Shown: piece after piece, positions 1 through 48,969 of the stretch
Layout of the letters: every line of letters begins with the position of its first letter
How positions within the stretch are numbered: the stretch's first letter is position 1
NCBI GenBank assembly: GCA_947384285.1
Contig: CANDGI010000002.1
Coordinates: forward strand, 62,001-126,000
Origin: an uncultured Lachnospiraceae bacterium
GTDB lineage: Bacteria; Bacillota; Clostridia; Lachnospirales; Lachnospiraceae
Length of the DNA: 64,000 bases
Direction: 5' to 3'
Program-made: the position numbers and the translations under genes
Notes under the pieces: model-generated
Database searches by the model: none
Seen by the model: only the letters and a program-made list of their open reading frames with translations
What the model was told of the DNA's origin: nothing

Positions 1-981
1 AACTTCATAACAGTTCCACTTTCCGCCGCATCCATCAGACTCATATTGGCGGTAAGAATTCCCTTCCTCCTCCCGGCAATATACCCGGAAATACCCATTT
101 TCCAGCAAATCGCTGTCCAGCTCAATGGGCTGCCCAGCACAGAAATTTTTTACAGCGCATCCTGTCTTATGCTGAAATGCTTCCAAAAGAAATCCATGGA
201 CGGAAAGAAGCTGGGGCGCAGTATCATAGGATGCTTCTTTTAAAACGCCCCGGATACAATAACCGCTGTTTGGCATCCCAGAATAAACCACAGCCCCGTG
301 GATTCCAGAAAACACCAGCTCCCCATGGGTAAGGAAGGCCTCTGTTTGATCCTTACAGGAAATTTCCTGAAATCCTTCCTGGGTATAGCACTGCCAGGAA
401 ACCTCTGCAAACCTCTGGCCTGCTGTCCCCTCAAAATCATTGCGGCAGGGCGTCTTTACCACATCCACATAAAAATAAAATTCCTCCTCTTGCGGCAGGG
501 AGTCCATGATAAAATACACTGCATTTCCCGCTTTGGGGCAATCACCGAAAATTTTTATGCTCATAGGTATCTCCTCCTGCAAGAGCACGCCCCCATCCAG
601 GATTTTTTCTTCCTCCATGCCATAGACCCCCACCAGCTTATGCCCTCCTGCTCTCTGGGGCTTCTCTGTCTCAAAAACCGTTTCCCCCACCCAAAACTGC
701 TGATATGCCGGAAACAGAACAGATTGCCCCGGCTGTTTCATCTTTAGCAATACCCTGGCACAGGCCCCGGGACGGCGGATAATGCCTGCCATCTTCAGCA
801 GGTTTTCCACCGCTCCCTGGGAAAATCCATCCATACTCTTCTGCTGCATCATATGAAATGCAATAAAATATTCCAATATGGTAACGCCAGGGTCGGAAGG
901 ATTGAAATTCGTCCACTCCGAAGTGTACACAGGAATTTTTTTCAGGCTCTCTTCCCACCATTCTTCAAATGTCTTATCCAT
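1..981 (-). CDS. CIS baseplate protein (Afp12-like / gp6-J-like), C-terminus outside window
   Basis: The frame is open from an ATG at 981 to the left edge (327 codons, no stop), so the gene is partial. An SD-like GAGGG lies just upstream. The N-terminus reads MDKTFEEWWEESLKKIPVYT and continues through FNPSDPGVTILEYF. The 'DPGVTILE' motif is typical of the large baseplate wedge proteins of phage tails and CIS (TIGR02243-like 'putative baseplate assembly protein'). It starts about 40 nt after the stop of the baseplate J gene and shares its strand, as Afp11 and Afp12 do in Afp/PVC loci. Many Cys and Tyr residues and no membrane segment are visible. I infer that it links the spike hub to the sheath baseplate. 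The remaining length and C-terminal domains cannot be judged. Confidence 0.75.
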   Translation of the reverse strand, partial: MDKTFEEWWEESLKKIPVYTSEWTNFNPSDPGVTILEYFIAFHMMQQKSMDGFSQGAVENLLKMAGIIRRPGACARVLLKMKQPGQSVLFPAYQQFWVGETVFETEKPQRAGGHKLVGVYGMEEEKILDGGVLLQEEIPMSIKIFGDCPKAGNAVYFIMDSLPQEEEFYFYVDVVKTPCRNDFEGTAGQRFAEVSWQCYTQEGFQEISCKDQTEAFLTHGELVFSGIHGAVVYSGMPNSGYCIRGVLKEASYDTAPQLLSVHGFLLEAFQHKTGCAVKNFCAGQPIELDSDLLENGYFRVYCREEEGNSYRQYESDGCGGKWNCYEV

Positions 982-1021
982 CTGCCTTCCCTCGCTTTAT
1001 ATAATATTTAGCTTTCTTCGG

Positions 1022-4000
1022 CTAACGCGGCTCCAGGATATGTACCTTGTGCTGCCCGCTTTTACAGATAAAAAAAAGAGAATCCGGCATTTTTTCCAAT
1101 TCCATCTCACACACTCCTGTTTTGCCCTGATATTTTCCTGTAATCATGATATGCTGGATGTCTGCCTTGCAAGAGGTTCTGCGAAGGCATAGAAGAATCT
1201 GGGACGGCTTTGGCAGCTCCCCGATTTCCCAGCCTGTATGGGATTCATCAGAAATGGGATTCAAAAAATCCTTCAGTGCCTGGATTAATTTGTTTTGAAC
1301 CTGAAAGCTTTCCTCCCATCCTTCCTTTTTTACCCACAGCTCCACAGATATTTCTACCGGTACCGGCGCAGCCACAGAAAGCTTATCCTTGCGGATAGAC
1401 ATCTCGCACCGGGCATAGAGATGCTCTTTGATTCCGTCCGCTTCCCGGATAAAAGAATCCGGTCCTTTGGCAAAATCCTTCATCAACACCACAAGGCAGA
1501 TATGGCCTGGCTCCCTGGCTCCCGCCGGGTTCCTCCCCACAAGGCAGGATACCTTATCAATATTGTCCGAATAGGACTTCACCTCCCGGACATAGTCTAA
1601 CCGGGTCAGGACTCTCCGGCGGCGGCTGAATTGTCCGGCTCCCCTTTTCAAGGCTTTGTCCAGGGTTTCCTGGCCAGCTCCCCCAAAGGCTGGGAGAGGA
1701 TTATTGCAGCTTCCATAAAAAGGAACCTTTGATACAAAATTCCGGATTGCCCCTGCTGGGACATTCCCGTCTGCCCCATCACATACCCTGACCGCCGCAC
1801 AGAAGGTTACATCCCCGGTGACCCCTGGGATTTTCACATGTACGCCATCCCCGAACCGCAGCTCCCCCTGTGCCCTGTCTAAGATATAATGCCTGTCCTG
1901 CGGCCTGGAATTTTCAAAATCCCAGACCTCCTCCCATTTCACATAAAAATTCTGGATATGTCCTGCGGTATCATATTCTGCACGAGCCTTTTTTGGCATT
2001 TCCTGCAGCAAGGCTTCCATCTGAGCCTTAGAGCAGCAATCCTTCTCATTCACCCATATATCCGCGTCCAGGATATCATTTTCTGACAACTGAACATGCA
2101 TACCCGGCCGAACCTGCTCCAGATAGAACTCTTCCTCCTCCAGAGATTCTATATTCTGCACCCAGACCCCGTTTACCCTTACCTGGTTCAAAAAAGGCTG
2201 CGCCATTGGTGTTTGTCCTCTGCCTTCCTCTCGAATCCTAAGCCAGTATCTGCAAACCCCCGCTTCCTTTGTTGGGGCAGAATCCCCTGGCGCCATAACG
2301 CTGGCAATTCCCGTATGGGCAAACCCGTCTGTCCCGTCCAGCGCCCGAAGCTCCCGGAATCCATGGCGGGAAGCGTACTCAAAGATAAGCTTCCTCCCAG
2401 AAAAGCCAGGCTCGTTCCTGAATTCAAAATACAGGTTCACCGGGCTTCCTTCCCATTTCTTTTCAAATCCCAGGTAAAGGGCATTCTCCCTGTATCTGGA
2501 AGGAGCGAACACGCACACCGGCTCACCAGCCAGCAATCTGGCTGCCAGATCCTCCCTTTCTGCCCCATACACCCGTTCCAGGCAGGAGGGCCTTTCGTAC
2601 CTTCCCTCATAGCTGTAACGGATTTCCAAATGCTCCAGCACCGGATAAGCATGGAGGGCTGGAAGCATATAGCAATTGTCTGCCTTCGTCAGCCGCATAC
2701 GGATACAGCGGCCCTCATAGGAGCCAATCTGGGACGGATGAAAATCCCTGGGGCAAAGAAAAGAAATTTGATAATCTCCCGGACGAGCCAAAGCGAACAT
2801 CCCTTTGTAATCCCGCCCGCAAACCGGACAGGCGGACATTCCTTTGTAATCCCGCCCGCAAACCGGACAGACAGACATTCCTTTGCAATCCTGCTGGCAG
2901 GCCAGCCGCTTCCATCCTTTCCCGTTAAAATATTCCAGCGATATCTCCTCTGCAAAAACTTTTACCGGGGTAATCTTAGGCTGCATGGGCGGTTTTCTTT
3001 TCACCAGGCGTAAATCCTCCATCTCTGGCTCTTGAAAGGGCAATCCCACTGTATGCTTCAAAAAAGATACCTGAAAATCCAGGGTGATTTCCGCATTTTC
3101 CTTGGAAAAACAAACATCATCCCCAATGTAGCACTCCTCAAATAATTGCAGTGTATTCCCAAAAGGCGCGAATTTTTCCACGTCAAAATCCATGGTTCCG
3201 TTTCCGGCATAAGGAGCCCTATGGGCAGCGCCTTCCGAGGAAACCAGAATCTCATCCAGCACAACCGCGTGCTCCAGCGGCTTTAAAGCCTCAATCACCA
3301 GCTCTGAGCCTGTGGGCTTGTCCCTTCCAATCATAAGGGTGTCTGGCTGAAGTTTTACTTCCTCTGCCTCCACAAATCCTTCCCGGGCAGGATAGAGAAT
3401 CCGAAATTCCCCCTCCACTATCCTTTCCGCCAGATTTTCTTTTCCCGCCAGTTTCAGATAGACGCTGCCATTTTCCGGGGCAAGCATATGCTTATGGGCA
3501 AGGATTAAGGCATTTTTTCCCATTCCCCTTTCTGGAAAAGAAAACAGCTCCCTGCCAGCAAAGTCCTGGTTTCCCACTGGGCTTTGCTCTGCCAGATAGT
3601 CCTGGCAGGCAAATTTCCCAAGCAGGGGCAGGGTTACGCCAGTGATGCCTTCGGCCATAAAACAATGGGTCAGCCTGCTGGCTGTGAGATAGCATCCGGC
3701 GCTGGTTTCAAATACAATATTTTTTCCTTCCGCTTCTGCGGACAGCTTCGTTCCCTTTTCTAAAAATGCTCCGCCAAAGCCTTCCGAAGCCTGGGAAAAG
3801 AGGACGCAGCTCTTTGCCGGATGCGCCGGAAGCCGGGACAAGCCCAGCATATTCACAAAATCCATCTGAAACTGTTCCAGCTTCCGGTTAAATTTCCTCA
3901 GATTCCACTCCATCTGCTCTGCAAACAAAAGGCCAAGGACAGAGCCGATATCCGGGCATTCCTCTTCAAAATGCCACTCCGGGGTATAAGCCTCCGCCAG

Positions 4001-4117
4001 CTTTGCAATTTCTTTCCTGATATCCCCAGCCGTCCTGCCATCCAATGGACTTTCCTTGACGTCCCCAGCCGTCCTGCCATCCAATGGACTTTCCTTGAAT
4101 CCTGTCCATTCCTCCAT
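1022..4117 (-). CDS. CIS baseplate J-like wedge protein (Afp11-like), 1031 aa
   Basis: This is a large baseplate wedge protein. The C-terminal third has the baseplate-J layout: LRFGDGVHVKIPG near residue 720, then RAGQFSRRRRVLTRLDYVREV, and a final PVPVEISVELWVKKEGW core. The start is supported by AAGGAGAAG upstream of ATG 4117. It follows gp25, the phage and CIS order. Two in-frame 39-bp duplications stand out. The N-terminus carries KESPLDGRTAGD twice. Near residues 412-438 CPVCGRDYKGM is duplicated, producing two CPVCG motifs 13 residues apart that resemble a zinc ribbon. In the family this protein helps form the baseplate that triggers sheath contraction. Baseplate identity is solid; the exact Afp11 equivalence is inferred from gene order. 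Confidence 0.85.
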   Translation of the reverse strand: MEEWTGFKESPLDGRTAGDVKESPLDGRTAGDIRKEIAKLAEAYTPEWHFEEECPDIGSVLGLLFAEQMEWNLRKFNRKLEQFQMDFVNMLGLSRLPAHPAKSCVLFSQASEGFGGAFLEKGTKLSAEAEGKNIVFETSAGCYLTASRLTHCFMAEGITGVTLPLLGKFACQDYLAEQSPVGNQDFAGRELFSFPERGMGKNALILAHKHMLAPENGSVYLKLAGKENLAERIVEGEFRILYPAREGFVEAEEVKLQPDTLMIGRDKPTGSELVIEALKPLEHAVVLDEILVSSEGAAHRAPYAGNGTMDFDVEKFAPFGNTLQLFEECYIGDDVCFSKENAEITLDFQVSFLKHTVGLPFQEPEMEDLRLVKRKPPMQPKITPVKVFAEEISLEYFNGKGWKRLACQQDCKGMSVCPVCGRDYKGMSACPVCGRDYKGMFALARPGDYQISFLCPRDFHPSQIGSYEGRCIRMRLTKADNCYMLPALHAYPVLEHLEIRYSYEGRYERPSCLERVYGAEREDLAARLLAGEPVCVFAPSRYRENALYLGFEKKWEGSPVNLYFEFRNEPGFSGRKLIFEYASRHGFRELRALDGTDGFAHTGIASVMAPGDSAPTKEAGVCRYWLRIREEGRGQTPMAQPFLNQVRVNGVWVQNIESLEEEEFYLEQVRPGMHVQLSENDILDADIWVNEKDCCSKAQMEALLQEMPKKARAEYDTAGHIQNFYVKWEEVWDFENSRPQDRHYILDRAQGELRFGDGVHVKIPGVTGDVTFCAAVRVCDGADGNVPAGAIRNFVSKVPFYGSCNNPLPAFGGAGQETLDKALKRGAGQFSRRRRVLTRLDYVREVKSYSDNIDKVSCLVGRNPAGAREPGHICLVVLMKDFAKGPDSFIREADGIKEHLYARCEMSIRKDKLSVAAPVPVEISVELWVKKEGWEESFQVQNKLIQALKDFLNPISDESHTGWEIGELPKPSQILLCLRRTSCKADIQHIMITGKYQGKTGVCEMELEKMPDSLFFICKSGQHKVHILEPR

Positions 4118-4166
4118 CTTTCTTCTCCTTCTAAGGAACTGTTCAAAAATAACTTGTGGACAGCTC

Positions 4167-4580
4167 CTATTGCGTATAAAACGGAACTGCCATGCTGTCC
4201 TTCCTGTGTCCGCCCAAGACCATGTAAGTGAGATTTACCATCAAACACCCCCTGCCTGGGACAGGCTTCATCTCTATTTCCACCTGGGATACCCTGGGCT
4301 CCTGGGTCAGGATGTCCGAACGGATATCCCTTGCCAGCATGGTCATCCTGGTTTCTGTCATATCCATAAATGTGTATGCAATCATACTGCTGCCAAAAGA
4401 AGGCCGCACCATCCGCTCCCTTTTGGACGTCATCAAAATCAAATAGATGGATTCCCTCACGGACATCACCCCTTTGGATACCGCAAACCTTCCGGTGGCT
4501 GGGTCCACCTGGGGCGGAAATTTCATCCCCATTCCCAGAAAATTATTTTCTTCCACAGCTGACTCCTGTATATATTCCAT
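4167..4580 (-). CDS. gp25/GPW-family baseplate protein, 137 aa
   Basis: The protein has the GPW/gp25 signature: SVRESIYLILMTSKRERMVR followed by PSFGSSM. In T4 and CIS particles gp25 ties the baseplate to the first sheath ring. I chose the ATG at 4580 (MEYIQESAVEEN) because it gives the usual family length and has GAAGGAAG 9 nt upstream. The frame also opens from a TTG at 4652 that overlaps the end of the spike gene. The 72 nt between them are two imperfect copies of a 36-bp unit (both contain TTGGATAG and AGATATG), so the longer start probably reflects a local duplication. It lies between the spike and baseplate J genes, as expected. Confidence 0.85.
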   Translation of the reverse strand: MEYIQESAVEENNFLGMGMKFPPQVDPATGRFAVSKGVMSVRESIYLILMTSKRERMVRPSFGSSMIAYTFMDMTETRMTMLARDIRSDILTQEPRVSQVEIEMKPVPGRGCLMVNLTYMVLGGHRKDSMAVPFYTQ

Positions 4581-4644
4581 TTGAATCTGGCTTCCTTCAT
4601 ATCTGCTTCTATCCAATTTTAATTTGGTTTCCCCATATCTGTTC

Positions 4645-5463
4645 CTATCCAATTTTTACCAGGCTTCCTCCTATGGATGTCTGTCCGCTGCTGGTAACCT
4701 TTACCTGTCCTCCGCCCTCAAGGGTAAGCCCGGCGGAAGCTTTCAGGCTGCCGTTTCCGTCTGTTTTCATTTCCATTCCTTTGCTGGCTGTTTCCTTTAG
4801 CACATTGCATTTCACATGGATGGCGCCATTTTCCCCGTTCAAAGTGATTTCAATGCTGTCCCCCACCTGGATGGCCAGCTTTTTCTCCGCAGACACTTCC
4901 ATCCTGCCATTTTCCGTCTTAATTACAATCCCATTCTTTTTGTCTTTATCGCTGATGGAAATCTGGCTTTTTTCATTGTCCAGCTCCAGCCTGTGGCACT
5001 CCCCCGCTGTTCTTATGAAAATCTTATCCTTTTCCCCGCCATCGCTTTCCTTGCTGTCCACAAAGGTAATCTCTGAACCATGCCTGGTCTTTATCTGCTT
5101 ATACTGATTATTTTCATCTGCCGCAGACTTTAAAAAGCGGGAATTATTTTTGGGGATACAGCCAATCACATAAGGCTTTTCGATATTTCCCTCTTCAAAT
5201 GCAAGGACTGCCTGATCCCCTGTTTCCGGCAGGAAATAATGGCCCCATGCTTCCCCTCCGAAGGGCAGGGCAACCCTTGCCCATTTTAAAATATTTGCAT
5301 TCTCATCCCGCTGGGGAATCTGCACGCATACCCTGCCCGGCATTTCCTTGTTATAATTTTCTGTTACAATTCCTGTGAGAATCCCAAACACCCGGTTCTC
5401 CCCCAGCTCTGTTTTTGTCATCTGTTTGGCAGTTATTTCATCCATAATATTATATAAAGACAT
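4645..5463 (-). CDS. CIS spike protein (gp5/VgrG OB-fold, baseplate assembly protein V type), 272 aa
   Basis: The N-terminal half shows the OB-fold of phage gpV/gp5 and VgrG: GILTGIVTENYNKEMPGRV, then VQIPQRDE, WARVALPFGG and FLPETGDQAVLAFEEGN. The C-terminal half is Gly/Ser-rich with short alternating strands (SAEKKLAIQVGDSIEITLNG), consistent with the triple-stranded beta-helix needle. It follows the separate hub gene, so hub and spike are split here rather than fused as in VgrG. The stop lies 8 nt inside the longest possible gp25 reading frame. In the family it forms the trimeric puncturing tip; a PAAR cap is not seen in the window. Confidence 0.85.
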   Translation of the reverse strand: MSLYNIMDEITAKQMTKTELGENRVFGILTGIVTENYNKEMPGRVCVQIPQRDENANILKWARVALPFGGEAWGHYFLPETGDQAVLAFEEGNIEKPYVIGCIPKNNSRFLKSAADENNQYKQIKTRHGSEITFVDSKESDGGEKDKIFIRTAGECHRLELDNEKSQISISDKDKKNGIVIKTENGRMEVSAEKKLAIQVGDSIEITLNGENGAIHVKCNVLKETASKGMEMKTDGNGSLKASAGLTLEGGGQVKVTSSGQTSIGGSLVKIG

Positions 5464-5496
5464 TTGTTCCCCTTCCTTAAGAAACCGGCAAACTAA

Positions 5497-5515
5497 CCCT
5501 GTGTATCGAAATATA
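5497..5515. repeat. Dispersed CCTGTGTATCGAAATATA element, copy 1
   Basis: The core CCTGTGTATCGAAATATA lies in the 124-bp gap between hub and spike genes. The same core recurs at 8196-8214 (one change), 21164-21184 and 35500-35522. The other three copies are preceded by a hairpin; this one has only a weak one. It looks like a degraded copy of a small intergenic palindromic element. Confidence 0.55.
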
Positions 5516-5587
5516 GATTGTTACTGTGGCACCCGCACGGTTAAAAATCATCGTTTTGCATGGATCCGGTATATCAGTGCTTTCTTG

Positions 5588-6733
5588 TCATGGTGTAAAA
5601 TCAAGGGCGCAGGTGTTTCCTTCCAGGTAGGTCAAAAACCCTTCTTCCCGGCGGAAAACATGGCGGACTGTCTGCAGATAAAAGCAGTTTTCCACGGCTT
5701 CCCCCAGGGCGTTGATACGGATGTAGCGTCCTGGAACCAGCTCCGGGATTCCCACTGTTTTACAGGCAATGCTTCCAAACCCAAAGGCGTTCTGCTCCGC
5801 CAGAAATTCTGCACGGCTCCCGGCTTCTTCCTTAGATACAGCCCCGGGATCTGTATAGACTTTCGCACTCCCTTTCAGCAGCGCTTTTGCATGGCTTCCG
5901 GTAGATATTTTATTTTTTATCTTTTTCTTTGCATTGACAGCCACGGCTTTTCCAGTATCCATGCCCCTGACTTCCACCTGCTCTGTAAGCCCTGCAATAT
6001 CGTAGCCGATTTCAAATCCCAAAAGCCCGCTGTCTGGCCCAAGCTCCATCAGCATCTCCTTATTCTTTCTGGCCTTCCTGAAATAGACGGTGCCGCAGTG
6101 GGTAAAAAATTCATAATTGTACCGTTTGGCAGCCCTTACCACAAACTCATAATCACTTTCATTCAGGAACTCTATGCTCCTTGCCTCCTTGCCTGTCCCG
6201 GAAACCTGCTTATCCGGGGTATCATCAATTTCAAGCTTCAGCAATCCATACTGCTGCATTTTACTGTAAGCCGCCCTGGCAAAAACCTCCTTCACCGCAT
6301 CCGAGTAGGATTCTGCCTTCAGCTGCTTTGCAAATCCACACGCCATCATAATTCCCCGGACATCCATTGCCGTCACCTGGACATAAGGATGTTCCTCCTG
6401 TTCATAAATAAAGTCCACCCTGGTGATCACCCCAAGAAATACTTTTCTAGCCTGGTTTTGATAGCCAAAGCTGATTTCCGCTTTTGCCCCAAGCTGTATG
6501 TACTTTTTCAAACCGCCAAACTCAAATTCCCAGGTATATTTTGAAAAAGCATTGTAAATGCAGAAAGTTGCCATGGACGCCTCAAATCCGCAGGTAAGCT
6601 CCACCTCCATATCATTGAGGATAAACCTTTCCTGATTGTCTGCAAAATCCTTTTCTCCCACCTTGAGCACTGCCACTGGATGTTCAAAGCCATAATATAT
6701 CTTTTTTAAATCCTCATATTGATACGATGCCAT
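5588..6733 (-). CDS. CIS hub protein (gp27 / phage late control D family), 381 aa
   Basis: The protein resembles the GPD/gp27 hub that carries the spike. Typical features are YGFEHPVAVLKVGEKDF at the start, GVITRVDFIYEQEEHPYVQV, LNESDYEFVVRAAKRYNYEF near the middle and LVPGRYIRINALG near the end. The frame is open to 6973, but I chose ATG 6733 (MASYQYEDLKK): AGAGGTGG sits 5 nt upstream, and the longer version would overlap the preceding gene by 188 nt. It follows the tube-initiator-like genes and precedes the spike, the standard hub position. The first 80 residues of the long reading are out-of-frame sequence of the neighbour. Confidence 0.85.
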   Translation of the reverse strand: MASYQYEDLKKIYYGFEHPVAVLKVGEKDFADNQERFILNDMEVELTCGFEASMATFCIYNAFSKYTWEFEFGGLKKYIQLGAKAEISFGYQNQARKVFLGVITRVDFIYEQEEHPYVQVTAMDVRGIMMACGFAKQLKAESYSDAVKEVFARAAYSKMQQYGLLKLEIDDTPDKQVSGTGKEARSIEFLNESDYEFVVRAAKRYNYEFFTHCGTVYFRKARKNKEMLMELGPDSGLLGFEIGYDIAGLTEQVEVRGMDTGKAVAVNAKKKIKNKISTGSHAKALLKGSAKVYTDPGAVSKEEAGSRAEFLAEQNAFGFGSIACKTVGIPELVPGRYIRINALGEAVENCFYLQTVRHVFRREEGFLTYLEGNTCALDFTP

Positions 6734-6785
6734 TTCCACCTCTGCTTGAAAAGCCCTGCTTTCACAATCCTTCTCTCCTTTGTTT

Positions 6786-7310
6786 TCACCTCTGGGAAAG
6801 CTTTTGGAAATCTTTCCACGCCTTTTCCCAATATCCTTGCTCCGACTTATTTGTCCCTGCATCACAATCCGCTTCTGCCTGCCGGATGGAAAGGCTGGCG
6901 TTTGCCCGGATGGGAGCTCCATTTCCACGAAACATGGTATAGGATGCGCTGACGCTTTCCAGTTCTCCGCCAAAACTCATATCTCCCCAGGCAAAAACCA
7001 CCTGCCGCCCGGCCTCCTGCATCACAAGGGACAAAAGCTCTTCTACCTGTCTCTGGACAAATCCCGTCTGGTTCTCGTCCATTTCCTCAAAGAAAAGCTC
7101 TACATGCAATGTGGTTTCCGGGGGAAAAACTGCGCTCTTTTGTGTTTCAAGCCCTGTTTCCCCAGCGCCCCTCTCCTCAACCAATCCGGCTCTGGAAGAA
7201 AAGGAAAGGGAAGCAGGATTGTACTGTACCGTCATATCCTTGCAGGCTGCAGTTTCCTTTGAATCTTTGCTTGTTTTTCCTATTTTCAGTATTGCCTTCT
7301 GGAAATCCAA
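6786..7310 (-). CDS. CIS tube-initiator-like protein (Afp7-type N-domain), copy A, 174 aa
   Basis: The protein has the hallmark of the CIS tube domain (PF19266-like): VQYNPASLSFSSRAG, then THVELFFEEMD-like strands and VSASYTMFRGNGAPIRANAS. In Afp/PVC this protein connects hub and tube, and usually carries a C-terminal LysM domain. Here the C-terminus is a short Gln/Lys/Trp-rich tail and LysM is absent. The start is a TTG at 7310 with AAAGGAAGGG 6 nt before it. It is a paralogue of the next upstream gene; both share the QYNPxxL and SYxMFxxxGxPxRA motifs. Confidence 0.8.
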   Translation of the reverse strand: MDFQKAILKIGKTSKDSKETAACKDMTVQYNPASLSFSSRAGLVEERGAGETGLETQKSAVFPPETTLHVELFFEEMDENQTGFVQRQVEELLSLVMQEAGRQVVFAWGDMSFGGELESVSASYTMFRGNGAPIRANASLSIRQAEADCDAGTNKSEQGYWEKAWKDFQKLSQR

Positions 7311-7331
7311 AATATCCCTTCCTTTCTCTCA

Positions 7332-7552
7332 ATGTCCACCGGCGCCGCCCACAGGATTTTGTTATGCCATTTCCACTTGGCTTGGAGAACTTGCTTAATA
7401 TTCAGCTCCGCCGCCCGCAGGATTTTGTTATGCCATTTCTACCTGGCTTGGAGAACTTGCTTAATGTCCACCGACGCCGCCCGCAGGATTTTGTTATGTC
7501 ATTTCTACCTGGCTTGGAGAACTTGCTTAATATTCAGCTCCGCCGCCCGCAG
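7332..7552. repeat. 66-bp direct repeat, about 3.3 copies
   Basis: The segment CTTGGAGAACTTGCTTAA begins at 7381, 7447 and 7513, giving a 66-bp period (22 codons). Units alternate slightly: odd junctions read TGTCCACCG and even ones TATTCAGCTCC, so a 132-bp higher-order unit is visible. The array starts within the 3' end of the second tube-initiator gene and fills the gap to the next. It has no unique spacers and is not CRISPR-like. It will form part of the polycistronic mRNA between the two genes. Confidence 0.9.
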
Positions 7553-8100
7553 GATTCCCCCATGCACAGGATTCCCACCCACACTTCTGCCCGAAGGGGG
7601 CTGCCTTTGGGGTGGAACATCACGTAAGAGGCCTGGACAGTATTCAAATATCCGCTGTAGCTTAGCGTTCCCCAAATCAAACTGACTTTCCTGGTATATC
7701 TGCTCCGAAGGGCGGCAAGCAGCCCTTCCACCTGCTGCTTTACCAATGGTTTGTCATCATTGGTTCCATCAAAAATGAGCTTGAAATTTACCCGGATCCG
7801 GGGCGATAACCGGTATGGCCGCAAAGCATTTCTGCTTCCGGCTGCATCCCCGATACAGTCCTGGGAATCTGCCGCGCCTTCTGCTGATATTTGAAGTTCT
7901 GCGGGATTAAACTGTACGGTAAAGCGGATTTTTTCTTCTTTGCTGTTGTTCCATTCAAAATTTTCTGCACTTATGCCTTGTGTGCTGATTCCTGGTATCT
8001 TTTTTGTTCCTGCTTCTGTTAGCTGGATTTCTCCTGGCTCCTGGTTTATGATCTCGATGACTGCTTTTTGAAGCTTGCAAGTGTCTCTTGGTTTCTGCAT
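7534..8100 (-). CDS. CIS tube-initiator-like protein (Afp7-type N-domain), copy B, 188 aa
   Basis: This is a paralogue of copy A. It has FTVQFNPAELQISAEG, INPRIRVNFKLIFDGTN-like strands and VQASYVMFHPKGSPLRAEVW, the same order of motifs. The predicted start is the ATG at 8100 (MQKPRDTC), which has TGGAG 7 nt upstream; an ATG at 8112 is also possible. The C-terminus (GESCGRRS) is created by the first unit of the 66-bp array, so the natural end may have been altered by the repeat. Its place directly after the tape-measure-position gene fits a tube-initiator role. Confidence 0.75.
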   Translation of the reverse strand: MQKPRDTCKLQKAVIEIINQEPGEIQLTEAGTKKIPGISTQGISAENFEWNNSKEEKIRFTVQFNPAELQISAEGAADSQDCIGDAAGSRNALRPYRLSPRIRVNFKLIFDGTNDDKPLVKQQVEGLLAALRSRYTRKVSLIWGTLSYSGYLNTVQASYVMFHPKGSPLRAEVWVGILCMGESCGRRS

Positions 8101-45328: not shown

Positions 45329-47311
45329 TTACTGAAGCAGTGACAATACGCCCTGTGTGGACTGGTTTGCCTGGGCAAGCATGGACTGCCCTGCCTGGGC
45401 AAGGATATTGTTCTTGCTGTATTCCACCATCTCAGAAGCCATATCGGTATCACGGATACGGGATTCTGCTGCTGTGGTGTTTTCCACAACATTATCCAGG
45501 TTCGCAATGGTATGCTCTAATCTGTTCTGGACTGCGCCAAGCGCGGAACGCTGTGCAGATACCTTGGAAATTGCATCTGCGATTGCGTCAATTGCGTAAG
45601 TTGCGGAATTTCCGCTGTCGTCGGATACGTTCAATCCCTTGATTCCAAGACCTGCTGCATCCATGGAATCAATGTCGACGGTGATCTTGTTAGTCATATC
45701 TGCATCAGATCCTACATGAAGATTGAAAGATAATGCTTTTTTCACTTCTACGCTGCCCTGTGCAATTGTGAACTTACCATCCCCGTTATTGGTTACAGCA
45801 GCTGCAACATCTGTACCGATACTGGAAGCATTCTGCAATTCTTCTGCCATCATTTCATACGCTTTCTCAGCGCTGATTACCTTTTCACTTCCAGACTCTG
45901 GCAAACCAATGTCACCGATAACCGTCTGTGCGCCGCCGCCATCTATATTAATGGTATCCCCATCATGGATTTTTGCTAAAATTGCATCCTTTGTCAGCTT
46001 AAAAGCTGCCTCATCTACATCCGCCTCATCCACAATTGTATATTCAATCTGCTCTGTAGCGGTTGATATTGCGACTTTCTTTGTGCCGTCAGCGTCCAAA
46101 GCATCAATGGCATCATATATATCTTTTGCAGACGCTGGAGCTGCTGCTGTTGCTTTTGTAGTAACTCCGTCTACTGTAACACTGTCGCCGGTAGAAAGCA
46201 CTGGCTTTGTATTATCTGTAATTCCAGCCCCAGCTTTGGCAACCGTTTCAGTATCTACATTTTTCAGTTGGGCTGAACTTATCTCTCCTTTTTCCAAAGC
46301 AGAAACAATAATGGTTTTTGTCACAACAGCAGCATCCGCTGTAGCAGCGGCTTTATCTGTAACATTTGTATGGAATTTACTACTTGTAACCTGCTTTCCT
46401 GCAGCAAGCGCGTCTTCGATCAATTTTCCTACATTATCTAATCCCACTGTCCCTGCTGTATCGCTGGTTGTTGTAGCTGATGCACTTCCGGTGTTTATCG
46501 TATAAACAGTTTCTCCAATGGTCACTGTGTCAGCGGCTGCCCAATTAATATCGCCGGCCGCAATCTTGTCTGTCACCGTATAGGTGTTTCCATCATATGT
46601 TACACTATCGCCAGCTGTCAATGCCTGTGTCGTAAAAAGTGCATCTGTAGAAATTTTATACCCATCCGTACTTGTATTCAATTCAGCAGGATCTATATAA
46701 TCTTTTCCTACTGCCGCTTTCGGAGCTTGGCCAATTTCATATTCCTTCCCTCCGATGGTAACCTTATCGCCATTTTCCAGAGGCTTATCCAATTCAAAAA
46801 TCGACACCCCGCCGCCCTTATCGGTAAGCTTCCCTTTGATCCCTGCGTCGTGGGCTCCAATGGTCTGGGTTGTGGTAGCTCCGGCCTTATCGCCTTTCAG
46901 CAGATAAATTTCATTGAACTTGGTTGTCTCTGCCACACGGTCAATCTCTGTGGTCAGCTGGTCAATCTCCGCCTGAATCGCATCCCGGTCAGATTCGGAA
47001 TTGGTTCCGTTGGCTGCCTGGGTTGCCAGCTCATTCATACGCTGCAGCATGGAATGCACTTCCGTCAAAGCGCCTTCTGCCGTCTGTACTGCGGAAACGC
47101 CGTCCTCTGCGTTGGTGGAAGCACGGTCAAGGCCGCGGATCTGTTTTCTCATTTTTTCAGAAATGGTAAGGCCGGCTGCGTCATCTGCCGCCCGGTTAAT
47201 CCGGTAACCAGAAGATAACTTTTCCGAAGATTTTGCCTGTGCGCTTGTGGTGATTCCTAACATTCTGTTAGAGTTCATTGCTGTTAAGTTGTGTTGTACT
47301 ACCATTGACAT
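45329..47311 (-). CDS. Flagellin, 660 aa with enlarged variable domain
   Basis: The conserved N-terminal D0/D1 is complete (MSMVVQHNLTAMNSNRMLGI, SSGYRINRAADDAAGLTISE, LQRMNELATQAANGTNSESD), as is the C-terminal D1/D0 (GAVQNRLEHTIANLDNVVEN, DMASEMVEYSKNNILAQAGQ, ending LSLLQ). Residues ~165-560 form a Thr/Ala-rich variable domain with repeated GDSVTVDG-type strands, larger than in minimal flagellins. ATG 47311 has AAGGAGGAA upstream; the longer frame from 47359 is not needed. It follows csrA by ~95 nt and carries two candidate CsrA sites in its leader. No export or hook gene lies nearby, so this is a detached flagellin locus. Confidence 0.95.
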   Translation of the reverse strand: MSMVVQHNLTAMNSNRMLGITTSAQAKSSEKLSSGYRINRAADDAAGLTISEKMRKQIRGLDRASTNAEDGVSAVQTAEGALTEVHSMLQRMNELATQAANGTNSESDRDAIQAEIDQLTTEIDRVAETTKFNEIYLLKGDKAGATTTQTIGAHDAGIKGKLTDKGGGVSIFELDKPLENGDKVTIGGKEYEIGQAPKAAVGKDYIDPAELNTSTDGYKISTDALFTTQALTAGDSVTYDGNTYTVTDKIAAGDINWAAADTVTIGETVYTINTGSASATTTSDTAGTVGLDNVGKLIEDALAAGKQVTSSKFHTNVTDKAAATADAAVVTKTIIVSALEKGEISSAQLKNVDTETVAKAGAGITDNTKPVLSTGDSVTVDGVTTKATAAAPASAKDIYDAIDALDADGTKKVAISTATEQIEYTIVDEADVDEAAFKLTKDAILAKIHDGDTINIDGGGAQTVIGDIGLPESGSEKVISAEKAYEMMAEELQNASSIGTDVAAAVTNNGDGKFTIAQGSVEVKKALSFNLHVGSDADMTNKITVDIDSMDAAGLGIKGLNVSDDSGNSATYAIDAIADAISKVSAQRSALGAVQNRLEHTIANLDNVVENTTAAESRIRDTDMASEMVEYSKNNILAQAGQSMLAQANQSTQGVLSLLQ

Positions 47312-47317
47312 AATTTT

Positions 47318-47375
47318 TTCCTCCTTGTCTTTGAATGCCGCAAATCCGTTTGCGTGCATGGGTGCAGCCTCCTGC
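47318..47375 (-). promoter_or_regulatory. Flagellin leader with two putative CsrA-binding sites
   Basis: On the coding strand GCAG-GAGG-CTGC (47364-47375) is a perfect 4-bp hairpin that displays GGA in its loop, the classic CsrA target. A second AAGGAGGAA (47318-47326) is the flagellin SD itself. This two-site layout copies the known hag leader of Bacillus subtilis, where CsrA blocks ribosome access. The csrA gene lies just upstream. Confidence 0.65.
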
Positions 47376-47406: not shown

Positions 47407-47709
47407 CTAAGTTTTTGCAGGACTTTCTGTCTGTAAATCCCTGCGCGCGCTCTTCCGTTCCGCCATAAGGATTGCCTTGATTTTTTCCTTGGCTTCCGGT
47501 GAAAGCTCTCTGTCCCGGTAATGCTTCACCTCATTTCCCGGGCCTGCCGCCATCCCGTACCGTTCCAACGCCTCACTTCTTACAATGTTGTAAGCCCTGG
47601 GTGCATCAATCAGAACCCTCAGGTTATTGGAACTTCCTCCTGTAAATACCAGTTTGATATCATCCCCAATCAGAACATATTCCCCTGGCTTTACTGATAA
47701 TTTCAGCAT
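47407..47709 (-). CDS. csrA: CsrA-like translational regulator with C-terminal extension, 100 aa
   Basis: The first ~55 residues follow the CsrA fold: MLKLSVKPGEYVLIGDDIKL VFTGGSSNNLRVLIDAPRAY, NIVRSEALERY. The RNA-binding Arg of 'I-x-R-x-E' is kept; the N-terminal strand has Val and Lys where Arg/Lys are usual. About 40 extra charged residues (ELSPEAKEKIKAILMAERK) follow, making it longer than the common 60-75. AGGAGGT precedes ATG 47709. In flagellated Firmicutes CsrA represses flagellin translation and is antagonised by FliW, which is not in the window. It is the first gene downstream of the invertible segment. Confidence 0.85.
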   Translation of the reverse strand: MLKLSVKPGEYVLIGDDIKLVFTGGSSNNLRVLIDAPRAYNIVRSEALERYGMAAGPGNEVKHYRDRELSPEAKEKIKAILMAERKSARRDLQTESPAKT

Positions 47710-47798: not shown

Positions 47799-47827
47799 AT
47801 GCAACAGTTCTTATACAATTGTTGCAG
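47799..47827. repeat. Left 29-bp inverted repeat (recombination site) of the invertible segment
   Basis: This repeat is the reverse complement of 48511-48539 with 27 of 29 positions matching. It is itself an imperfect palindrome, TGCAACA at one end and TGTTGCA at the other, with 12-bp arms around a central TAT. That is the form of a tyrosine-recombinase core site. Confidence 0.85.
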
Positions 47828-47843
47828 ACTGGAGGTACAAAAA

Positions 47844-48425
47844 ATGGGAACAACACAACCAATCCGCGAGAAAGATGATTTGAAAAAATTTCTGGATTAT
47901 TATCACAACTGCCGCCCAAATGCCAGGAATTATGCGCTTATTACATTCGGGCTGCACACTGCGCTGCGTATCGGCGACATTCTGAATTTAAAATGGGAAG
48001 AAGTGTATGATTTTGACTCAAAATGCTTCCGGGAGCATTTATTCCTGAGAGAAAAAAAGACCGGAAAACAAAATATTGTGGCAATGAACTGCCATTTAAC
48101 GGAAACATTGAACGTTTATAAAAAAAGCCGCAACCCAAAGCCTACCGACTATATTTTTACAAAAACCACTGATTACACACGGCCTTTGAGCCGTTCCCAG
48201 GCCTTCCGCATTATGAAAAAAGCCGCGGCGGAGACACTGCACACCACCCATGTAAGCTGCCATTCCCTTCGCAAAACCTTTGGCTACCACGCATGGAAGC
48301 AAGGGGTCCCGCCTGCGCTTTTAATGGATATTTTCAACCATTCTTCTTACACCATCACCAAGAAATACCTGGGGATTGAGCAGGATGAACGGGATTCTAT
48401 TTTTATGAAAATTGATTTTTTATAA
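47844..48425 (+). CDS. Tyrosine recombinase inside the invertible segment, 193 aa
   Basis: The catalytic residues are all visible: Arg in HTALRIGDILNLKWEE, Lys in EKKTGKQNIVA, His-x-x-Arg in VSCHSLRKTFGYHAW, His in FNHSSYTITKKY and the nucleophile Tyr in TITKKYLGIEQ. At 193 residues it is a compact enzyme close to the FimB/FimE and other small invertase sizes, with only a short N-terminal SAM-like region. ATG 47844 has GGAGG 8 nt upstream. It is flanked exactly by the 29-bp inverted repeats and so would invert its own gene along with the sigma-28 promoter. It probably acts on these two sites. Confidence 0.92.
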   Translation: MGTTQPIREKDDLKKFLDYYHNCRPNARNYALITFGLHTALRIGDILNLKWEEVYDFDSKCFREHLFLREKKTGKQNIVAMNCHLTETLNVYKKSRNPKPTDYIFTKTTDYTRPLSRSQAFRIMKKAAAETLHTTHVSCHSLRKTFGYHAWKQGVPPALLMDIFNHSSYTITKKYLGIEQDERDSIFMKIDFL

Positions 48426-48466
48426 AAAATATTCAGGGGAAAAGGATAAAAAATGAATTTAGGGGC

Positions 48467-48493
48467 TAAAGTTTTCTAGATAATTTCCGATAT
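48467..48493 (+). promoter_or_regulatory. Sigma-28 (SigD/FliA-type) promoter inside the invertible segment, pointing away from csrA
   Basis: The boxes are CTAAA (TAAA at 48467-48470), a 16-nt spacer, and CCGATAT (48487-48493), matching the flagellar sigma consensus TAAA-N14..16-GCCGATAT. In the present orientation it reads right, through the right repeat into a stem-loop. After inversion it would read left toward csrA, about 135 nt from the csrA ATG. Confidence 0.8.
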
Positions 48494-48510
48494 AGGAAGT
48501 GTACAGAAAA

Positions 48511-48539
48511 ATGCAACAATTGTATAAGAAATGTTGCAT
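48511..48539. repeat. Right 29-bp inverted repeat (recombination site) of the invertible segment
   Basis: This is the partner of 47799-47827 in inverted orientation, 27 of 29 positions identical, also with TGCAACA/TGTTGCA ends. The two enclose 683 bp containing only the recombinase gene and the sigma-28 promoter. Confidence 0.85.
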
Positions 48540-48554
48540 TTTTCTTATTTTCTG

Positions 48555-48597
48555 CAATAGAAAGTCTGCGGAATGCACTTTCTATTGTTTGACTTTT
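48555..48597 (+). terminator. Terminator-like hairpin just outside the invertible segment
   Basis: CAATAGAAAGT (48555-48565) and ACTTTCTATTG (48577-48587) form a perfect 11-bp stem with an 11-nt loop, followed by TTTGACTTTTT. It would stop transcription from the sigma-28 promoter in the OFF orientation and from the recombinase gene. Confidence 0.7.
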
Positions 48598-48773: not shown

Positions 48774-48969
48774 GAAAGGGGCTGCCGGGAAATGATAAGT
48801 TATCCGCAATATATATTGTGGCGCTTTCAGCAGCACAACAATATATTGCAGATATTACTCCGGCGGTTAAATATCGACGTTTTTACTTGCAGATGAAAAT
48901 TTATTCTGCGTAAAATTCGTCGACATTTAACCGCCGGAGTAATAAATTCTATTTCCCGGCAACCCCTTT
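48774..48969. repeat. Inverted-repeat element (copy 2) carrying a second nested element
   Basis: The ends AAAGGGGCTGCCGGGAAAT (48775-48793) and its near-complement (48951-48969) match copy 1 at 38408-38512, and the left ~75 bp are clearly homologous. Between the homologous halves lies an extra palindromic insert of about 90 bp, described separately. Confidence 0.85.
48854..48943. repeat. 90-bp palindromic element inserted in the previous one
   Basis: Perfect 19-bp arms (48854-48872 and 48925-48943; ATTACTCCGGCGG...) enclose further complementary stretches (CGACG/CGTCG, GCAGA/TCTGC). Copy 1 lacks it and reads GGTAAAT at the junction, so the insertion point is between AT and AAAT. No gene fits inside it. 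Confidence 0.85.

Follow-up and report, generated by a model that had tools for sequence, protein, structure and literature searches.

The classic precedent for a recombinase gene lying inside its own invertible flagellin segment is hin-fljBA of Salmonella. There, the recombinase gene and a promoter are both within the segment, the promoter reads into the flagellin operon in one orientation only, the operon includes the gene for a post-transcriptional regulator (FljA), and another flagellin has its own promoter elsewhere; the recombinase, Hin, is a serine recombinase. In E. coli, fimS is an invertible promoter served by FimB and FimE, short tyrosine recombinases made of the catalytic domain only, which are encoded outside the segment, and its target is the fimbriae. 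The Hin locus is mentioned in an excerpt of PMC11868660, and the fimS system in an excerpt of PMC2784873. In C. difficile, flagella are also controlled by a recombinase-made inversion, the flg (flgB) switch, which involves RecV and Rho; according to the parts of PMC7446863 that we drew on, its promoter is not part of the segment, the recombinase works from another place, and Rho-dependent transcription termination turns the flgB operon OFF. For the C. difficile cwpV switch, excerpts of PMC2784873 describe a model with an intrinsic terminator at the inverted-repeat junction in the OFF orientation; the segment is 195 bp long, carries neither promoter nor recombinase, and controls a cell-wall protein. 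Finally, the Hag-FliW-CsrA system of flagellin homeostasis in B. subtilis (PMC6529632) combines a CsrA-family protein and FliW with a flagellin leader that has one GGA in a hairpin loop and another in the Shine-Dalgarno sequence.

The window analyzed here, a 64-kb stretch of a single contig (G000:C2:62001-126000), comes from a draft genome of the family Lachnospiraceae (3.2 Mb in 74 contigs, 83% complete). Within it, a recombinase gene and a sigma-28-like promoter are enclosed by 29-bp inverted repeats (47799-47827 and 48511-48539) that match at 27 of 29 positions, as the original prediction had stated. This repeat is far beyond chance: the best pair of 29-mers within 47300-49000 matches at 28 of 29 positions, and the maximum in 200 two-base-block shuffles was 22. 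Each arm is itself palindromic (TGCAACA-N13-TGTTGCA), in agreement with the core sites proposed for it, and the two sites lie at 47799-47826 on the csrA side (left; ATGCAACA-N-TGTTGCA) and at 48512-48539 on the non-gene side (right; the inverted-repeat partner of the left site). The left site stands ∼90 nt upstream of a csrA paralog (47407-47709, minus strand), and csrA has a flagellin gene downstream of it (45329-47311, minus strand), the two co-oriented genes forming one unit. On the plus strand, the order from the left site is recombinase, whose Shine-Dalgarno sequence adjoins that site, promoter, right site, and T-tract. We consider it highly probable that this locus, which includes the gene for its own recombinase, works as a self-contained switch for flagellin phase variation and is now OFF.

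Relatives of the recombinase were present in 57 of the 61 genomes searched, many of the weaker matches being ordinary Xer-type proteins. We compared 94 distinct recombinase loci, consisting of the best 80 of 570 relatives from a scan of one genome per species, the best locus from each of 20 genomes, and the window, minus six duplicates. As judged by tblastn, csrA was a neighbor in 82 and flagellin in 84 of these best-match loci, both in 78 and neither in 6, although these counts, like all counts across the set, are not independent because the loci are related by ancestry. Among their sources are isolates as well as metagenome genomes that bear the names Roseburia, Eubacterium, Acetatifactor, Petralouisia, and Lachnospiraceae, and one genome (G019) has six switch loci, all six with csrA and flagellin. 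The csrA-flagellin switch arrangement is common in the family and not unique to the source genome. The original prediction had called so compact a combination of recombinase, promoter, and CsrA-flagellin target unusual, a view contradicted by these 78 of 94 best-match loci; for a recombinase within its own flagellin segment there is also the Salmonella precedent. Sites of the same TGCAACA-type palindromic form flank the recombinase in 73 of the 94 best-match loci when a looser palindromic regular expression is used, and a strict site rule resolved 58. The 21 loci without two recognized sites under the looser scan include L037, L057, and L014, in which the recombinase is outside the segment, the larger segments L081, L088, and L114, the locus L111, and loci at contig ends.

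The recombinase (47844-48425, plus strand) has 193 amino acids and comprises the catalytic domain only, with PF00589 (95.6 bits; cut-off 27.1), a tyrosine-type domain, as its sole Pfam match. Tyrosine recombinases share the catalytic set Arg-Lys-His-Arg-His-Tyr. The corresponding residues R42, K72, H140, R143, H166, and Y175 were identical in 19 of 19 aligned relatives, and the phage integrase domain together with this set places the protein among the tyrosine recombinases and not among the Hin/Gin serine recombinases. A 208-residue alternative reading starts from an ATG within the repeat; the 193-residue start is used by all 19 aligned relatives. The protein aligned to the C-terminal part only (residues 150-304 of 317) of XerA (5hxy). 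The enzyme resembles FimB and FimE in its short, catalytic-domain-only form, but the NCBIfam model for FimB/FimE-type invertases (NF007371) gave 44.2 bits against a cut-off of 222, and FimB and FimE are encoded outside the fimS segment. Here, the gene lies between the sites, as it does in 55 of the 58 strict-rule loci; it is outside in 3. Searching the source genome with the recombinase gave at most two further, much weaker matches. Compact variants of 215-448 bp were seen at L037, L014, and L057, with the order csrA, site, promoter, site, recombinase, the last gene being just outside the segment.

The original prediction had placed a sigma-28-like promoter inside the segment, pointing away from csrA and flagellin, and our results bear this out. 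The promoter (CTAAA-N16-CCGATAT; 48466-48493, plus strand) is the sole match of its class over the 64 kb; because 0.7 matches were expected by shuffling, the motif taken alone does not reach significance there. Its placement is conserved: 65 of the 73 two-site relatives have a sigma-28-like match within 100 nt inside the right-hand site, compared with 1.1 expected from mononucleotide shuffles (the regular expressions for sigma-28 vary slightly between the strict-rule, shuffle, and looser-scan counts). Two two-site loci, L038 and L070, had no sigma-28 match in the looser scan. Inspection by eye showed a promoter of the form TTAAGT-N-TACGATAT, which the regular expression missed, in four G019 loci and one G001 locus. 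A fliA gene is present in the source genome (C9:89121-89780). With its promoter inside the segment, the locus departs from the cwpV type, and it differs in the same respect from the flg switch as excerpted in PMC7446863.

Both orientations of the segment occur in related genomes. Under the looser scan of the best-match set, 67 of the 73 two-site loci were OFF, 2 were ON (L039 and L094), 2 lay between divergent flagellins, and 2 had no promoter match. None of the 58 strict-rule loci was ON. The recombinase lies within the segment in 51 OFF loci and immediately beyond it in 3 others that are also OFF (L037, L057, and L014); in 2 further OFF loci it is reversed with respect to the promoter (L110 and L112), and the remaining 2 have flagellin on both sides (L106 and L109). 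L111, which has an ON look for a flagellin without csrA and one recognizable site only, is a probable single-site ON locus.

The ON state of L039 and L094 reflects real inversions and not rearranged neighborhoods. L039 (ON) and L043 (OFF) are collinear over ∼3 kb on one side (437-3430 with 788-3780), at the dead-flank site (5929-5964 with 5847-5882), in csrA (6647-6846 with 6665-6862), and in flagellin, and the segment alone is reversed (6307-6567 with 6273-6013; promoter and site, 6620-6674 with 5911-5857). L094 (ON) and L060 (OFF) are likewise inverted, a thinner pair with a 45-bp alignment on the non-gene side. In both ON loci, the promoter leads straight to the Shine-Dalgarno sequence of csrA. 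Because the first pair is collinear on both sides with the segment alone inverted, and a second pair repeats the pattern, the segment has inverted in nature; the search for both orientations in relatives, proposed in the original prediction as a check, thus gave the outcome that it anticipated.

In L106 (Eubacterium xylanophilum ATCC 35991; 4866-7758) and L109 (an Acetatifactor metagenome genome; 5043-7614), the segment separates a divergent pair of near-repeat flagellin genes, their 5′ parts making up long inverted repeats, and these loci are likely either-or flagellin switches. Contig ends fell within 360 nt to the right of the recombinase in 8 of 24 cases and to the left in 2 of 19; this crowding is no clear sign of mixed orientations because several of the nearby ends are located within flagellin or tRNA repeats.

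For the OFF state, the original prediction had proposed a terminator hairpin just outside the right repeat (48555-48587). A hairpin with a weak T-run does fold there (48553-48590, plus strand; -14.8 kcal/mol, z -3.7), but a terminator and sigma-70 scan with a loop limit of 8 did not list it, and the stronger hairpin is formed by the right site together with the T-tract next to it (48505-48545; -16.6 kcal/mol, z -4.9). This site hairpin was also missing from the scan, because its loop exceeds the limit. The fold of the csrA-side site gave -7.8 kcal/mol and z 0.0. Going beyond the original prediction, the recombination site is the stem of an intrinsic-terminator-like hairpin (48505-48552, plus strand), in which a mobile A-tract and the site are completed by a fixed T-tract in the non-gene flank (48540-48552).

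The relatives show the same asymmetry. The 10 nt outward of the site contained a mean of 6.9 T on the non-gene flank versus 2.6 on the gene flank, and among 71 one-sided loci the T-rich side was the non-gene flank in 69 and the gene flank in none, with 2 ties. The T-tract follows the gene side and not the recombinase, also in the ON loci, L110, and L112; where flagellin is on both sides (L106 and L109), the T-tract is on neither flank. An A-tract lies on the inner side of the promoter-side site (5.0 A in 8 nt versus 2.5 at the other site) and would form one long hairpin with the site and the T-tract. When the promoter-side arm was folded with the non-gene flank, the mean was -19.4 kcal/mol, compared with -13.1 kcal/mol for the gene flank; a simple terminator rule held for 65 of 69 loci with the former and 6 of 69 with the latter, and the gene flank gave the more stable hairpin in 5 of 69. 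These data suggest that termination in the OFF state is probably brought about first by the recombination site itself with its T-tract. The cwpV model, as excerpted in PMC2784873, offers a precedent for a terminator at the site, and the flg switch is likewise OFF by termination, although Rho-dependent there according to the excerpts of PMC7446863. This terminator-in-site design gives a simple, testable rule for calling the switch state from sequence alone.

The flank search of the switch loci did not find a promoter of the recombinase's own. A -10-like hexamer pointing inwards was enriched in the last 25 nt of the non-gene flank before the site (22 of 69 loci, 4.3 expected; 4 in the gene flank), with no -35 to go with it in these loci (2.8 of 6 matching versus 2.6 in shuffles). 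This hexamer could feed the recombinase in the ON orientation. Because the enriched -10-like element lacks a -35, we did not adopt a model in which the non-gene flank expresses the recombinase solely in the ON orientation and would thereby bias the switch to OFF.

The csrA paralog of the switch encodes 100 amino acids with a C-terminal extension and matches PF02599 with 59.4 bits (cut-off 27). Residue 44, in CsrA-family numbering, was Arg in 83 of 83 csrA paralogs, and residues 24 and 25 were Gly in 82 and 83 of them, respectively. Residue 6, in strand 1, was Val, Leu, Met, or Ile in all 83 and never Arg, whereas RsmE and the canonical CsrA of the source genome have Arg at this position. The PF02599 match and Arg44 place the protein in the CsrA family; its NCBIfam equivalog score was 28.7, compared with a cut-off of 73.

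The flagellin of the switch (660 amino acids; PF00669, 149.6 bits; PF00700, 98 bits) has a long variable middle. Its leader contains a hairpin (CGCAAA-CGGA-TTTGCG; 47339-47354, minus strand) that we predict to be a CsrA site on the basis of GGA-loop conservation and covariation, and a second GGA is in the Shine-Dalgarno sequence (CAAGGAGG; 47320-47327, minus strand). A GGA-loop hairpin was found in 79 of 87 flagellin leaders (83 distinct loci) at a median of 24 nt before the ATG, compared with 6.3 expected by shuffling. In an alignment of 44 leaders, 7 of 7 pairs changed on both sides and 92.5% of cells could pair, with a covariation score of 0.654 versus 0.197 for shuffled and at most 0.167 for slid partners; this alignment leans towards the hairpin because the 44 were picked by eye from 97 leaders, mostly with the hairpin visible within 61 nt, the unpicked count being the 79 of 87. 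CsrA regulation of hag in B. subtilis has the same look, with a GGA-loop hairpin in the leader. A covarying GGA-loop leader hairpin is a signature of CsrA control, which makes the switch flagellin a predicted CsrA target. The two GGA motifs and the FliW gene of the genome correspond to the Hag-FliW-CsrA arrangement; unlike in B. subtilis, an extra, divergent csrA is tied here to a phase-variable flagellin, besides the canonical fliW-csrA.

The source genome contains five flagellin-like genes and flgL. The canonical csrA is on contig C23 with flgL, fliW, flaG, and fliD (flaG and fliD were named by eye from reading frames), and a third csrA is on C4. The flagellin gene at C15:19998 is preceded by a fixed sigma-28-like promoter, identified by eye and with its position checked (L032 1272-1297), and its leader has a GGA-loop hairpin (TTGCAGC-ATGGAG-GCTGCAG); the csrA paralog is co-oriented with the switch flagellin. 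A second csrA-flagellin unit, on C4, has one site at L026 6811-6837 and another at 7540-7566; a variant of the promoter (TTAAGT-N-TTCGATATAT; L026 7496-7524) faces away from its csrA, and no recombinase was found in the 16-kb stretch analyzed. This pair of sites might be served in trans by the recombinase of the switch on C2. The flagellins on C2, C4, and C15 are 74-96% identical over their first 140 residues; both ends are shared and the middles differ (660, 399, and 419 amino acids, respectively). The shared ends and the promoters point to three flagellins of one kind, of which one is fixed and two are switchable, both of the latter being OFF.

Taken by analogy, the parallel with hin-fljBA is close in logic. 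In both, the recombinase gene and the promoter are inside the invertible segment, the promoter reads into the flagellin operon in one orientation only (here OFF; ON in L039 and L094), a post-transcriptional regulator is encoded in the operon as well (FljA in Salmonella, a CsrA paralog in the present locus), and another flagellin has its own promoter elsewhere. They differ in that the Lachnospiraceae enzyme is a tyrosine recombinase, which keeps the locus out of the Hin class, in that the site is a predicted terminator stem here, and in that several copies occur per genome (six in G019). With respect to the flg switch as excerpted in PMC7446863, a single csrA-flagellin unit takes the place of the flgB operon.

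We propose the following mechanism. The recombinase made inside the segment would pair the two inverted sites and flip the segment, as its family, the sites, and the natural inversions suggest. In the OFF orientation, the promoter would direct transcription away from csrA and flagellin, and the transcript should stop at once because it meets the site and the T-tract hairpin of the fixed flank. Inversion would bring the promoter and the site hairpin against the csrA-side flank, with the csrA-flagellin unit ∼130 nt downstream, and read-through into both genes would be expected because this flank has no T-tract. The csrA paralog and the flagellin would then be made together; the flagellin mRNA, through its leader hairpin and Shine-Dalgarno GGA, would be a target of CsrA proteins, with FliW as the expected antagonist. 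In ON cells, a different flagellin would join or replace the one with the fixed sigma-28-like promoter.

The strong excess of OFF loci bears on other readings. A skew of 67:2 would also fit switches that hardly ever flip, and it is the main loose end of this study; it may reflect selection in the gut or in culture, an orientation-dependent supply of recombinase, or rare flipping. If the locus were a relic that once flipped and is now locked OFF, leaving csrA and flagellin effectively silent, then the OFF orientation of 67 of the 69 promoter-bearing loci that have a single gene side would be expected, as would the C4 copy, which retains sites and a promoter variant with no recombinase within 16 kb in a genome that offers at most two much weaker matches. 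However, the recombinase is intact with all six catalytic residues conserved, the sites still match at 27 of 29 positions, the csrA and flagellin frames are open, and relatives have ON forms, so that we regard a locked state as unlikely.

The same excess of outward-facing promoters, and the stable hairpin that their predicted RNA would hold, could mean that the present orientation is the working one, in which the sigma-28 promoter either yields a short RNA that is terminated or acts for the right flank, and csrA-flagellin has a promoter of its own. This is very improbable in view of the T-tract, which remains on the non-gene side even where the recombinase is reversed (L110 and L112) and is missing where flagellin is on both sides, and of the two ON loci, whose promoters lead directly to csrA. 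That the recombinase segment is a mere small mobile element which landed beside flagellin genes is the least credible of these readings: related modules do adjoin other predicted secreted proteins (L140 and L142), and 6 of the 94 best-match loci have neither csrA nor flagellin by tblastn, but csrA, site, recombinase, promoter, site, and T-tract keep a fixed order and spacing across genera, and the sites flank a promoter as inverted repeats, which a switch requires, and are not insertion ends. The original prediction of an invertible sigma-28 promoter with its own recombinase in the OFF state is the reading that the anatomy and the comparison both support.

A broader interpretation of this switch is offered tentatively, and we think it possible rather than probable. 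Flagellar phase variation of the Salmonella kind may have been re-invented convergently across the Lachnospiraceae, with the ON state supplying a new flagellin and a specialized CsrA that would act on the GGA-loop leaders of the other flagellins to block their translation; a single inversion would then swap the filament. The site would double as the OFF terminator, built or broken by strand exchange, and up to six modules per genome would allow combinatorial flagellin coats. Our survey, which covered titles, abstract openings, and excerpts of open-licence literature, found no description of a self-flipping csrA-flagellin switch; the excerpted text of PMC3720852 contains no recombinase or phase-variation words. 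Earlier mention elsewhere in the literature is possible, and the novelty of the switch is provisional.

Lachnospiraceae flagellins are dominant among the flagellin antigens of Crohn's disease. Antibody responses to flagellins of the gut microbiota in this disease are reported in an excerpt of PMC11285207. If the csrA-flagellin units of the family are phase-variable and most sequenced genomes are OFF, flagellin exposure would depend on the switch state and not on gene content alone, and gene-based surveys of flagellin repertoires would misread it. The dedicated CsrA linked to a switchable flagellin makes a connection between homeostasis and antigen choice testable.

Modules with a like recombinase, sites, and a sigma-28-like promoter were also observed beside other predicted secreted proteins, at L142 (3349-4253 and 4285-5997) and L140 (near 3470-4260, and 4092-6371). 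The neighbors are a Big_2 Ig-like protein and a repeat protein with a sub-cut-off transglutaminase-like match, and on the other side a polysaccharide deacetylase or a related choline-binding-type protein. Because these two loci adjoin such proteins, the module may serve surface proteins other than flagellin. In the window itself, just beyond the switch (48775-48969), nested inverted repeats with 19-nt ends (95%) and 32-nt inner arms (91%) have the look of a small non-autonomous element.
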